Shown here piece by piece: positions 8,180 through 47,496 of a stretch of 64,000 nt of DNA. The notes below the pieces were generated by a model, which saw nothing but the letters and a program-made list of their open reading frames with translations, was not told where the DNA came from and searched no databases. The DNA is from Aestuariivirga sp. (GTDB lineage: Bacteria > Pseudomonadota > Alphaproteobacteria > Rhizobiales > Aestuariivirgaceae). Numbering within the stretch: position 1 is the stretch's first letter; the number at the start of each line of letters is the position of its first letter. Made by a program: the position numbers and the translations under genes. The stretch is from assembly GCF_020252395.1 (NCBI RefSeq), contig NZ_JADCDB010000020.1:1-64000 (forward strand), written 5' to 3'.

Positions 8180-9016
8180 TCACTTGTCGATTCGCCTGGT
8201 TTCGGACAGCATGTTGAGGATTGTGGCGGCAATCTCTTCCACCGAGCGGCGTGTGACGTCGATGATCGGCCATTCATTTCTTGAGCACAGTGTCTTCATC
8301 AGCATCAGCTCATCGGTGATCTGCCGGGGATCGATGTAGTCCGTGGAGCGGCTCTCCTTCAAGGAGAGAAGCCGGTGACGCCTGATCTGCGCGATGCGCT
8401 CCGCGCTGGCGATAAGGCCGACAATCAGGGGCCCCTGAAGATCGATCATCTTTTGCGGAACGGGGATGCCAGGCACGATAGGAATATTAGCAGTGCGAAT
8501 GCCGCGCTGCGCGAGATAGATGGAGGTCGGCGTCTTCGAGGTGCGGCTGACGCCGAGGATGACGACATCCGCCTTCTCGAGATCGTCGATCGATTGTCCG
8601 TCGTCATGCGCCATGGTGAAGTTGAGCGCATCGATGCGGCGGAAATAATCGGAGTTCAGTGCATGCTGGCCTCCCACCTGCGGCCTTGAGCTGGCGTTGA
8701 GGTATTGCGACAGAATGGCGATGATAGGGTCTAGGATGGACAGGCACGGAACGCCCATCGCCCCGCACTGCTCTTCGAGGTGCCGGCGGATATCGGGATT
8801 GATGAGTGTGAACAGCACGATCCCTGGCTGCTCCTCGATTTCGCGCAACGCGCGGTTCAGCTGCGACGGGGTGCGCACCAGTGCGTAGATGTGGGCGACT
8901 GGCCGGAAATCGGAATACTGCGCGGCCGCCGCCTTGGCCACAGTATTCAGCGTCTCGCCCGTGGCATCAGACACGAGATGGAGGTGGAAGTAACGCTGTG
9001 AACCGGATTGGGACAT
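8180..9016 (-). CDS. ppsR: PpsR-family kinase/pyrophosphorylase (DUF299)
   Basis: Bifunctional Ser/Thr kinase and Pi-dependent pyrophosphorylase that switches phosphoenolpyruvate synthase or pyruvate phosphate dikinase off and on. 278 residues from the ATG at 9016. N-terminal F-H-L-H-L-V-S-D-A-T-G-E-T-L-x-x-V and the P-loop-like G-V-S-R-T-S-K-T-P-T-S-I-Y-L-A are diagnostic. First gene on the left side of the putative origin; its leader holds two DnaA-box-like sites. The frame can be extended to 9169 through the origin region, but that part looks non-coding. Confidence 0.92.
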   Translation of the reverse strand: MSQSGSQRYFHLHLVSDATGETLNTVAKAAAAQYSDFRPVAHIYALVRTPSQLNRALREIEEQPGIVLFTLINPDIRRHLEEQCGAMGVPCLSILDPIIAILSQYLNASSRPQVGGQHALNSDYFRRIDALNFTMAHDDGQSIDDLEKADVVILGVSRTSKTPTSIYLAQRGIRTANIPIVPGIPVPQKMIDLQGPLIVGLIASAERIAQIRRHRLLSLKESRSTDYIDPRQITDELMLMKTLCSRNEWPIIDVTRRSVEEIAATILNMLSETRRIDK

Positions 9017-9191
9017 TGTGTGGATGAAATGTGGACTCTGCGGGTAACGATGGGTGTGGTGGGTATTCTTAATAAACTGTTCCGGTTGCCATCCACAGAC
9101 AAGCCGGAGCGCGAGGGCCCCTATGGCCGCTGTGGACAACAATTCGGGCGAACCGGCCTCGTGAAGCACGTGTGAACGGGATTCTAGGGTA

Positions 9192-9206
9192 TTAACGACT
9201 TGTTAA
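9192..9206. promoter_or_regulatory. CtrA-type site, exact TTAA-N7-TTAA
   Basis: TTAA at 9192-9195, seven bases, TTAA at 9203-9206. This is the full-length CtrA recognition motif known from Caulobacter, where CtrA binds Cori and blocks initiation in swarmer cells. It sits in the most AT-rich part of the putative origin. Confidence 0.6.
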
Positions 9207-9212
9207 TACGTC

Positions 9213-9228
9213 TTTATTTTCGATTAAC
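9213..9228. promoter_or_regulatory. Second CtrA-like site, TTTA-N7-TTAAC
   Basis: TTTA at 9213-9216, seven bases, TTAAC at 9224-9228. One base from the full motif and including the C that often follows it. Seven bases after the exact site, so the two may be bound cooperatively. Confidence 0.45.
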
Positions 9229-9340
9229 GCGGTATGACGCGGCGTCTGCCCGCAAGGATGCACTTGACCTGTGGACGATCGTTGGATTGGGTTGTATCCC
9301 GCTTCCCGCAGGTTAAACAAAAGAGACAAGAAGAGTCAAA

Positions 9341-10387
9341 ATGATGGGAACAGGGAAGGGCACCGCCGCACCCCGCAGTGCATTACTTGATGTTCTGAAC
9401 CGGAAGCCAGCACAGCGGCGTCCCATATGGTTCATGCGTCAGGCAGGGCGATATTTGCCTGAATACCGTGCAGTGCGCGAGAAGGCGGGTTCCTTTCTTG
9501 ATCTTTGTTACAATCCAGAACTTGCAGCCGAAGTCACGGTTCAGCCCTTGCGGCGATATGATCTCGATGCGGCTATCCTGTTTGCCGATATTCTGGTGGT
9601 TCCACACGCCATGGGACTGCCGGTGACATTCGCGGAAGGTGAAGGTCCGGTTCTGGGAACGGTGCGCAGCAGGGAAGATCTTGATCGGTTGAGGCAGGTA
9701 GCTGGCACTTATGAAGTCAATCAGGTGTGCCGGACAGTGAGCTTGACCCGGGCGCAGCTGGCGCCGAATCAGGCACTGATCGGCTTTTGCGGGGCGCCGT
9801 GGACCGTTGCAAGCTACATGGTAGGTGGTGGCAGCTCCGATCGGGTGATGGCCAAGGTGGCGGCCTACCAGCGCCAGCCATGGTTCTGTGCCCTCATCGA
9901 TCGTCTGGTAAAGGAGTCAGTCGATTATCTGTCGGCTCAGGGCGATGCGGGGGCTCAGGCGGTCCAGATCTTCGATTCCTGGGCAGGAGACCTTGTGGGC
10001 ACGGAACTTGAGGAATTCGTGATGAAGCCCGTGGCAGACATCGTGGCCGGGGTGAAGGAGCGGCATCCTGCTCTTCCCATTATCGTTTTTGCCCGTGGTG
10101 TCGGTATGGCGCAATATAAGGCGGCAGCCATTCCAGGGGCCAATGCCATCGGTGTTGAAACGGAATTCGGACTGGCCGACCTGCCGAAGGACGTCGTCGT
10201 CCAGGGCAACCTCGATCCTGTGGCCCTTTTGGCTGGTTCCGAGGTTGTCGCTAGGGAAGTCGGTCGGATCTGCTCCAGCATCGACCGCCAGCGGCATATC
10301 TTCAATCTGGGCCACGGAATTAGGCTGGGGACGGACCCTTCGGTCGTTGGCGCTGTTGTCGAAGCGGTCAGGCGTCATGATGAATGA
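9341..10387 (+). CDS. hemE: HemE, uroporphyrinogen decarboxylase
   Basis: Decarboxylates uroporphyrinogen III to coproporphyrinogen III in haem and cobalamin-related tetrapyrrole synthesis. 348 residues. The N-terminal signature R-P-I-W-F-M-R-Q-A-G-R-Y-L-P-E-Y-R is intact, as is G-F-C-G-A-P-W-T in the middle and the C-terminal N-L-G-H-G-I motif. ATG at 9341 is followed by a second ATG at 9344. First gene to the right of the putative origin; in Caulobacter the hemE promoter lies inside Cori, and a TTGACC at 9264 overlapping a DnaA-like box may be its counterpart. Confidence 0.95.
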   Translation: MMGTGKGTAAPRSALLDVLNRKPAQRRPIWFMRQAGRYLPEYRAVREKAGSFLDLCYNPELAAEVTVQPLRRYDLDAAILFADILVVPHAMGLPVTFAEGEGPVLGTVRSREDLDRLRQVAGTYEVNQVCRTVSLTRAQLAPNQALIGFCGAPWTVASYMVGGGSSDRVMAKVAAYQRQPWFCALIDRLVKESVDYLSAQGDAGAQAVQIFDSWAGDLVGTELEEFVMKPVADIVAGVKERHPALPIIVFARGVGMAQYKAAAIPGANAIGVETEFGLADLPKDVVVQGNLDPVALLAGSEVVAREVGRICSSIDRQRHIFNLGHGIRLGTDPSVVGAVVEAVRRHDE

Positions 10388-13606: not shown

Positions 13607-13622
13607 TGTTTCACGTGAAACG
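13607..13622. promoter_or_regulatory. parS: parS site 1 (ParB centromere)
   Basis: TGTTTCACGTGAAACG matches the bacterial parS consensus TGTTTCACGTGAAACA at 15 of 16 positions. It lies in the 66-bp gap between mnmE and mnmG, 4.3 kb to the right of the putative origin. Confidence 0.9.
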
Positions 13623-15535: not shown

Positions 15536-16158
15536 CGGCATCTGAAGCGGACACTATTCTGCATCGCTTTGATGTTTCACGTGAGACACGTTTAAAGATC
15601 GAGACCTATGTGAAGTTGCTGCTGATGTGGCAGCAACGGATCAATCTGATTGGCCCTGCAACGGTTGCTGCAGTTTGGGATCGGCACGTCTGCGACGCCC
15701 TACAACTCCTTCAACATCTTCCCCCCGGAGCGAGAACCATCGCCGAACTGGGCTCCGGCGCGGGAATTCCCGGGCTCATATTGGCCATTGCCGCAGGTCT
15801 CGATGCACATCTCTATGAAAGCAATGGAAAAAAGGCAGCCTTCCTGCGCGAGGCGGCGCGTCAGACGGGGACCCGGGCAATGGTACACAATGTTCGGCTG
15901 GAAAGCTTGACGCGCGATCGTAGTGTTCCCAAGGTGGACTGTGTCGTTGCCCGAGCCTTGGCGCCCCTGCCTCTGCTGCTTGATTATGCAGAACCCTTCC
16001 TGTCTCAAGGGTCCGTCGGGCTCTTTCACAAGGGACAAGAAGTCGACGTTGAATTGACCGATGCAGCAAAATATTGGAGAATGAATGCCTTGAAGCACGC
16101 GAGTCAATGCGACTCGCGGGGCGTCATCCTCGAAATCCGTGAGGCCTCCCGTGTCTGA
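15532..16158 (+). CDS. rsmG: RsmG (GidB), 16S rRNA m7G527 methyltransferase
   Basis: SAM-dependent methylation of 16S rRNA G527; loss gives low-level streptomycin resistance in other bacteria. 208 residues with the SAM motif [11 protein letters not shown]. Codons 14-20 carry the second parS site, so the peptide F-D-V-S-R-E-T is partly set by the centromere. This is also seen in Caulobacter. Overlaps parA by 8 to 20 bases depending on the parA start. Confidence 0.95.
15573..15588. promoter_or_regulatory. parS: parS site 2, inside rsmG
   Basis: TGTTTCACGTGAGACA differs from the 16-bp consensus at one position. It lies 41 bp into rsmG and about 2 kb from parS site 1. ParB clamps loaded at both sites would spread across the mnmG-parA region. 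Confidence 0.88.
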
Positions 16159-17030: not shown

Positions 17031-17909
17031 ATGGACATGGGCATCCCTCAAAAGAAGCGACTTGGCCGCGGACTCGCCGCGCTGATCGGTGAGGACACCA
17101 GCGAGGAGGCGGTGGTGCAGGACGTGCGCACGCTGCGCCACATGCCCATCGAACTGCTCAAGGCCAGCCCCAATAACCCACGCAAGAACTTCGCGGAGGC
17201 TGACCTTGAGGATCTATCAAAGTCGATCCGAGAGAAAGGACTGCTGCAACCCATCGTGGTGCGGCCCATTGCCAACGGCGAGTATGAGATCGTGGCGGGC
17301 GAGCGCCGCTGGCGCGCCGCGCAACGCGCCGGCGTGCACGACGTTCCCGTGCTGATCCGCGACCTCACCGATGGCGAGGCGCTGGAGATTGCCTTGATCG
17401 AGAACATCCAGCGCTCCGACCTGAACTCGCTGGAAGAGGCTCGCGCCTACAGCATGCTGCTCGAGCAATTCAGTTACACTCAGCAGCAGCTTGCCGACTC
17501 GATCGGCAAGAGCCGCAGTCACATCGCCAATACGCTGCGCCTGTTGAACCTGCCGGAGGCGGTGCGTGCCGAGATCGAGCAGGGCCGCCTCACCGCCGGT
17601 CATGCGCGTGCTTTGGTCGCAACCGATTCGCCTGCGGAACTTGCCGCCCGGATCATCAAACTCGGACTCTCGGTGCGCGAGGCGGAGAACCTGGCCCGCG
17701 AAGCTTTGGCGCCAAAGAAGCAGAAGATCAAGCCGGAGAAGGATGCCGACACGCGCGCCCTCGAAAAACTGGTGTCGGAGGCCATCGGACTGAAGCTTGA
17801 AATCACCCACAGGCGCGACGGCAGCGGCAACATGGTAATCAGTTACAAAACGCTCGATCAGCTCGAGGACGTTTGCCGGCGCCTGCAGAAATTGAGCGCA
17901 ATCAGCTGA
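17031..17909 (+). CDS. parB: ParB, chromosome-partitioning DNA-binding CTPase
   Basis: Binds parS, hydrolyses CTP and slides as a clamp. 292 residues. The N-terminal K-R-L-G-R-G-L-A-A-L-I region contacts ParA. The CTP-binding motifs G-E-R-R-W-R-A-A and E-N-I-Q-R-S-D-L-N are present; the latter is usually E-N-I-Q-R-x-D-L-N-P, with Ser here in place of Pro. A helix-turn-helix (Q-Q-Q-L-A-D-S-I-G-K-S-R-S-H-I-A-N) and a C-terminal dimerisation domain follow. A GAAAGAGAGCAGGA ribosome-site region precedes the ATG. Last gene before the convergent purH. Confidence 0.96.
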   Translation: MDMGIPQKKRLGRGLAALIGEDTSEEAVVQDVRTLRHMPIELLKASPNNPRKNFAEADLEDLSKSIREKGLLQPIVVRPIANGEYEIVAGERRWRAAQRAGVHDVPVLIRDLTDGEALEIALIENIQRSDLNSLEEARAYSMLLEQFSYTQQQLADSIGKSRSHIANTLRLLNLPEAVRAEIEQGRLTAGHARALVATDSPAELAARIIKLGLSVREAENLAREALAPKKQKIKPEKDADTRALEKLVSEAIGLKLEITHRRDGSGNMVISYKTLDQLEDVCRRLQKLSAIS

Positions 17910-47480: not shown

Positions 47481-47496
47481 TTAACGAGGCATTAAC
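47481..47496. promoter_or_regulatory. CtrA-type site, exact TTAA-N7-TTAAC, between ftsE and the zinc-ribbon gene
   Basis: TTAA at 47481-47484, seven bases, TTAAC at 47492-47496. It lies 49 bp before ftsE and 46-58 bp before the divergent zinc-ribbon gene, so it could control either or both. Confidence 0.55.

Follow-up and report, generated by a model that had tools for sequence, protein, structure and literature searches.

In Caulobacter crescentus the chromosomal origin, Cori, is flanked by divergent hemE and COG1806 genes and combines an AT-rich segment with DnaA boxes weaker than the E. coli consensus and with TTAA-N7-TTAA sites for the response regulator CtrA (PMC1914354, PMC4468827, PMC8959179). 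Five CtrA sites are spread along that region and two G-boxes lie near, or are overlapped by, CtrA sites (PMC1914354, PMC4468827); CtrA is thought to sterically exclude DnaA from the overlapped or neighbouring G-boxes (PMC4468827). Rickettsia prowazekii has the same hemE-COG1806 boundary genes, and CtrA and IHF sites have been reported in its origin, which differs in being about 83% A+T (PMC1914354). In Hyphomonas neptunium a CtrA ChIP-seq signal adjoins the origin (PMC7200025), this species being grouped with the Caulobacterales rather than the Hyphomicrobiales (PMC8116508). A 2015 review states that origin CtrA sites have not been seen outside Caulobacter species, with the possible exception of R. 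prowazekii (PMC4468827).

The locus considered here lies in a 64-kb window, the whole stretch of DNA analysed, which forms the start of contig C13 in a draft Aestuariivirga genome of 46 contigs and 3.49 Mb. CtrA is conserved in this genome, as it is in Sinorhizobium meliloti and Brucella abortus, which belong to the same order, Hyphomicrobiales. No CtrA is reported at the S. meliloti origin (PMC4433202), and the CtrA of B. abortus does not bind the origin of that species (PMC2877005). A search of titles and abstracts, in which subscription literature is thinly covered, found no report on an Aestuariivirga origin and no survey of CtrA sites in Hyphomicrobiales origins, and such reports may exist.

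The first-pass annotation had proposed a 324-bp gap between divergent ppsR and hemE genes as a putative chromosomal origin, and profile matches on both sides confirm this arrangement (Table 1). The ppsR-type product clears NF003742 (pyruvate, phosphate dikinase/PEP synthase regulator) and falls below the stricter PpsR equivalog cut-off. Among named relatives, those nearest by HemE include an Aestuariivirga sp. (L031, 89%) as well as A. litoralis KCTC 52945 (L034, 86%). The proposed agreement with the Caulobacter gene order also held, since the same divergent pair is present in all eight Caulobacter-labelled loci, where the two matches lie 521-574 bp apart compared with 325 bp in the window. 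Across 110 loci, a set that includes the window's own and counts several contigs twice, ppsR and hemE matches occur together in 68 and are divergent in every one of these; the remaining 42 have short flanks or lack ppsR there. As in the hemE/COG1806-type origins described in PMC1914354, adjacency of the two genes is accompanied in the gap by several DnaA sites, by CtrA sites and by an A+T content that is raised relative to the 64-kb window (48% vs 37%). In the rickettsial gaps that we compared, site positions differ from those in the window. Some relatives have what by eye appears to be a maf-like gene directly next, and in part of the genus (L012, L021, L036 and L150) ppsR was not found between a maf-like gene and hemE while an origin-like gap persists upstream of hemE.

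Table 1. Features of the hemE locus and its surroundings (positions in the 64-kb window).
Feature	Position	Strand	Basis or remark
Intergenic region, putative chromosomal origin (oriC, Cori/hemE type)	9017..9340		Caulobacter synteny, DnaA-core cluster, conservation in 11 genomes
ppsR-type regulator gene (COG1806/DUF299)	8180..9016	-	NF003742
hemE, uroporphyrinogen decarboxylase	9341..10387	+	profile match
DnaA-type box 1, TCATCCACA	9019..9027	-	TCCACA/TGTGGA core
DnaA-type box 2, GAGTCCACA	9030..9038	-	TCCACA/TGTGGA core
DnaA-type box 3, CCATCCACA	9089..9097	+	TCCACA/TGTGGA core
DnaA-type box 4, TTGTCCACA	9131..9139	-	TCCACA/TGTGGA core
DnaA-type box 5, TCGTCCACA	9270..9278	-	TCCACA/TGTGGA core
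CtrA site 1, exact TTAA-N7-TTAA	9192..9206		motif; exact in 9/10 relatives compared
CtrA site 2, 7/8, third half-site TTTA	9213..9227		motif; exact in 9/10 relatives compared
Four-half-site CtrA array (half-sites 0, +11, +21, +32), presumed unwinding region	9192..9227		motif, conservation
Strongly conserved block around box 5, adjoining hemE	9263..9302		alignment of 11 gaps
parS-like site, 1 mismatch	13607..13622	+	relaxed genome search
parS-like site, 1 mismatch, inside rsmG	15573..15588	+	relaxed genome search
parB	17031..17909	+	TIGR00180

Five DnaA-like boxes had been annotated in the gap, and all five are present, accounting for 5 of the 31 TCCACA cores in the window. When the 64 kb are scanned in steps of 20 bp, every 324-bp segment with at least three cores overlaps the gap, those elsewhere holding at most two, and none of 3000 dinucleotide shuffles of the gap reached five cores (mean 0.22). 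None of the boxes matches TTATCCACA, the E. coli-type DnaA box consensus, and WATCARNNNNTTR, the IHF consensus, which was scored in its exact form alone, is absent from all 11 origin gaps that we aligned. The degenerate word TYRTCCACA occurs 120 times in the genome, while its reversed form occurs 39 times. Of the 120 sites 100 were listed, and among these the hemE gap alone holds three within 300 bp. A first parS pattern had no match in the genome, and a relaxed search allowing up to two mismatches returned two sites in 3.49 Mb, 4.3 and 6.2 kb from the gap and near parB.

It could be argued that replication starts at another place, such as the vicinity of dnaA, and that the gap at hemE merely contains promoters of two divergent genes, given that the placement at the gap rests on sequence, that the assembly is in 46 contigs and that GC skew is uninformative. 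However, the 4.4-kb dnaA locus on another contig contains two scattered DnaA cores and no box cluster, for which reason we rejected it as a rival origin, whereas parS-like sites, synteny and strand polarity all point to hemE. An origin elsewhere thus appears extremely improbable. Synteny, the DnaA box cluster, the parS-like sites and a KOPS-like polarity in two relatives argue that the gap is almost certainly the chromosomal origin at which replication would start.

A GC-skew minimum near hemE had been proposed as a test of the origin. There is no turn over 400 kb of the A. litoralis contig around hemE (20-kb values from -0.027 to +0.025), nor in 20 samples of the complete genome of the relative G066, and in another relative, G038, the sign does not change, both sides being mostly positive with larger values downstream of hemE. 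An earlier survey describes GC skew as similarly unhelpful for finding the origin in several alphaproteobacteria (PMC1914354). Since the skew does not turn, it cannot decide the matter and was set aside as uninformative rather than taken as counter-evidence. The word GGGNAGGG, the KOPS word of E. coli, is polar in G066, as judged from 20 samples of 20 kb each (L191-L210) with an antipodal terminus assumed. When the hemE gap is taken as the pivot, 77 copies are on the leading and 27 on the lagging strand, a score that none of the pivots tried at 25-kb steps exceeds. The control word GGGANGGG is biased too (52 to 32), so that part of the GGGNAGGG polarity represents a general polarity of G-runs. 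In G038, which belongs to the same family as the window's genome (samples L322-L341), the word splits 66 to 35 at hemE, the best pivot lies one sample off (69 to 32), and hemE scores no better than pivots as far down as 450 kb, which equal it. In A. litoralis the split is 37 to 24 at hemE, with distant pivots reaching up to 39 to 22, and in the window the word is too rare, with 0 and 1 copies to the left of the gap and 6 and 3 to the right. An 8-mer polarity screen of A. litoralis was rejected as unconvincing (top |z| of 4.5 among 2099 words). In G066 and G038, where GC skew is flat or unchanging in sign, GGGNAGGG polarity marks the replichores and could aid origin finding in this order.

The two CtrA sites that had been annotated in the gap differ in quality: the first is an exact TTAA-N7-TTAA, while the second matches at seven of eight positions. 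The exact site is followed by two 7-of-8 matches, at 9203 and 9213, that overlap each other, and the half-sites of the resulting array are spaced such that they fall close to one face of the helix. At least one exact site arises in 0.5% of 3000 dinucleotide shuffles of the gap and the four-half-site array in none. Exact TTAA-N7-TTAA occurs 17 times in the whole genome, compared with 5 occurrences of the reversed word, and the array occurs once. The AT-rich patch that had been listed beside the sites is real, as the 50-mers with at least 34 A/T start at 9178-9181 and nowhere else in the 64 kb, but it is not a separate feature: it coincides with the CtrA array, so that patch and sites amount to one feature counted twice rather than to independent evidence. 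The AT-richest and the least stable 50-mer were discarded as independent markers of unwinding, since they coincide with the array at 5 and 4 loci, respectively, out of 11, lie elsewhere in the rest, and overlap the TTAA words.

The spacing between CtrA sites and DnaA boxes sets this locus apart from Cori. Instead of five sites along the region, the window holds one phased pair, 52 and 42 bp from the nearest boxes, and the Cori-type closeness of CtrA sites to G-boxes is found neither in the window nor in its clade. A DnaA core is found within 10 bp for 0 of 18 CtrA sites in the rest of the family and for 2 of 49 in other families; the random expectation for these counts takes no account of overlaps that the sequences themselves rule out. 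By kind the origin is ordinary, and its conserved CtrA module is a variant of the one in Caulobacter.

Along with dnaA, the genome carries a gene for a CtrA homologue (86% identity to a Caulobacter CtrA) and, within about 0.6 kb of it, a gene for ChpT. We consider it probable that the locus works as an origin under a CtrA brake, in which DnaA would bind weak boxes on either side of the array, a group of four towards ppsR (9019-9139) and a single one towards hemE (9270-9278), and would melt the AT-rich stretch between them. Phosphorylated CtrA would bind the tandem array inside this stretch, at two sites two helical turns apart, and would hold off initiation until CtrA is dephosphorylated or degraded. 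Since none of the 19 CtrA sites of the clade comes as close as 10 bp to a DnaA core and the array fills the AT-rich gap between boxes 4 and 5, CtrA~P may block melting, or bridge across the segment, rather than compete for the boxes. Such an architecture suggests a mode of control, by occupation of the melting segment, that differs from the exclusion of DnaA at Cori.

Is the array more than a fortuitous property of AT-rich DNA? When the window's gap is aligned with those of ten relatives, whose HemE identity ranges from 89% down to 55%, the conserved islands are the TGTGGA cores, the block adjoining hemE and TTAA-N7-TTAA-N6-TTWA-N7-TTAA. The two CtrA sites, 21 bp apart, occupy the same place in all of these genomes while the surrounding DNA has diverged. 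All four half-sites are exact in 8 of the 11 (8 of the 10 relatives); the third half-site reads TTTA in the window and in G031, and the second reads GTAA in G035. Two rows with gaps under 250 bp (G030 and G054) were dropped, genomes whose hemE is fragmented or abuts the end of a contig were left out (G006, G041, G045, G056, G092, G128 and G148), and 4 of 80 and 4 of 140 genomes gave no HemE match. With TTWA allowed, the array was found in the genome itself and in 14 of the 80 relatives searched (a tally of 15), adjoining hemE in 10 of the 14, nine of them in the same clade and one, G073, in another family. The exact array is present in 18 of 397 genomes of the order and lies beside hemE in nine of the 18 (families f1, f27, f44 and f45), such that a phased CtrA pair is found upstream of hemE in at least four families, including that of the window. 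Within the genus, 11 of 23 genomes other than the eleven aligned carry an exact CtrA site within 450 bp. Where the exact array is away from hemE, it is located at flagellar-looking genes, judged by eye, in two of nine cases.

These patterns have to be weighed against the scenario that the gap is the origin and that what look like CtrA sites there are neutral relics, or simply AT-rich DNA that serves melting. TTAA words are AT-rich, the third half-site of the window itself is imperfect and the array is absent from several relatives of the same family, all of which would fit this scenario. However, the half-sites are held down to a HemE identity of 55% while much of the gap diverges, the exact array recurs beside hemE as described above, and its spacing is specific. 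Up to 500 bp upstream of hemE were searched for TTAA-Nk-TTAA (k = 3-15) in 127 genomes of 47 other families, and N7 was found at 57 sites in 46 genomes and 21 families, compared with 0-7 sites (mean 3.75) in at most six families for each of the twelve other spacings, an enrichment of about 15-fold. AATT-N7-AATT gave 6 sites, AATT at other spacings giving 1-10, and with one mismatch allowed N7 reached 148 sites vs 52-74. One hundred of the surveyed slices span a fixed 500 bp upstream from where the HemE alignment begins, and some ppsR coding sequence may fall within them, while slices fetched earlier that contain ppsR end at that gene; the distance upstream exceeds 400 bp for 6 of the 57 N7 sites. 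Members of one family are not independent of each other, and it is safer to rely on the counts of families. Mere AT-rich resemblance or relics are thus very unlikely to explain the array.

The survey also shows how unevenly the motif is distributed. A CtrA site is present in all four genomes of families f5, f14, f34 and f40, those of f40 lying mostly 470-490 bp upstream of hemE and perhaps outside the gap, and in none of the four genomes of each of families f2, f12, f18, f20, f23, f30, f31, f33 and f35. The earlier remark that many rhizobial origins lack an exact CtrA motif is correct at the level of the motif (81 of the 127 genomes outside the family); 46 do carry an exact site, so the window is not a lone exception. 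This runs against the review's statement on origin CtrA sites outside Caulobacter (PMC4468827).

The main rival to replication control is that the gap is the origin and the array governs transcription of hemE, of ppsR or of an origin-borne small RNA like ccnA. In Caulobacter the origin CtrA sites also bear on hemE and on the non-coding RNA CcnA (PMC8959179), and in other families some CtrA sites are located 26-44 bp upstream of the aligned HemE start, possibly within the first codons of the gene. The conserved block adjoining hemE may contain the hemE promoter. Nonetheless, a promoter scan of 9000-9360 found no sigma-70-type pattern, and no Rfam match up to an E value of 0.1 was found in 8900-9500. 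Moreover, the exact N7 site is found at anything between -26 and about -500, counted from the start of the aligned HemE, depending on the genome, and genomes of the genus without ppsR in the upstream slice still carry exact sites. We therefore regard control of transcription as the unlikely, though foremost, alternative, and control of initiation by CtrA as the reading that better accommodates the array.

Whether such a brake has been retained from an ancestor is a separate matter. In a HemE tree of 32 rows, drawn from one gene by a quick search and with long branches, a single clade unites the ten closest genomes with the array (SH-aLRT 99). The array-bearing G002 is placed with G009 (91), in whose gap even a 7/8 CtrA match is lacking. 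With the paired array in one HemE clade and in G002, whose nearest HemE relative lacks it, retention and regain are both possible. The initial claim that the CtrA brake is kept in this lineage is partly supported: real, conserved sites with a specific spacing and genes for CtrA and ChpT are present, binding and inhibition by CtrA are inferred, and the array may have been either retained or regained.

Beyond this clade, the distribution of the motif suggests that a Caulobacter-like replication brake may operate in many rhizobial relatives even though the best-studied rhizobia lack it. With somewhat less than even confidence, we propose that direct control of initiation by CtrA could be widespread in the Hyphomicrobiales, that in several families it would act through two sites phased 21 bp apart over the melting region rather than at the DnaA boxes, and that S. 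meliloti and Brucella would be exceptions that lack it. If CtrA binds at these sites, gain and loss of a replication brake can be tested by comparing families with and without them.

Some minor features of this genome are recorded here. Block 9263-9302 is the longest conserved block of the gap, near letter-for-letter in several relatives, and its conservation is stricter than one DnaA box seems to require. A second exact TTAA-N7-TTAA of the window is found away from the origin, at 47481-47495. Finally, contigs C4, C8, C11 and C22 each carry TTGTCCACA at positions 33-41 or 34-42 from the contig start, which suggests one repeat common to contig ends.
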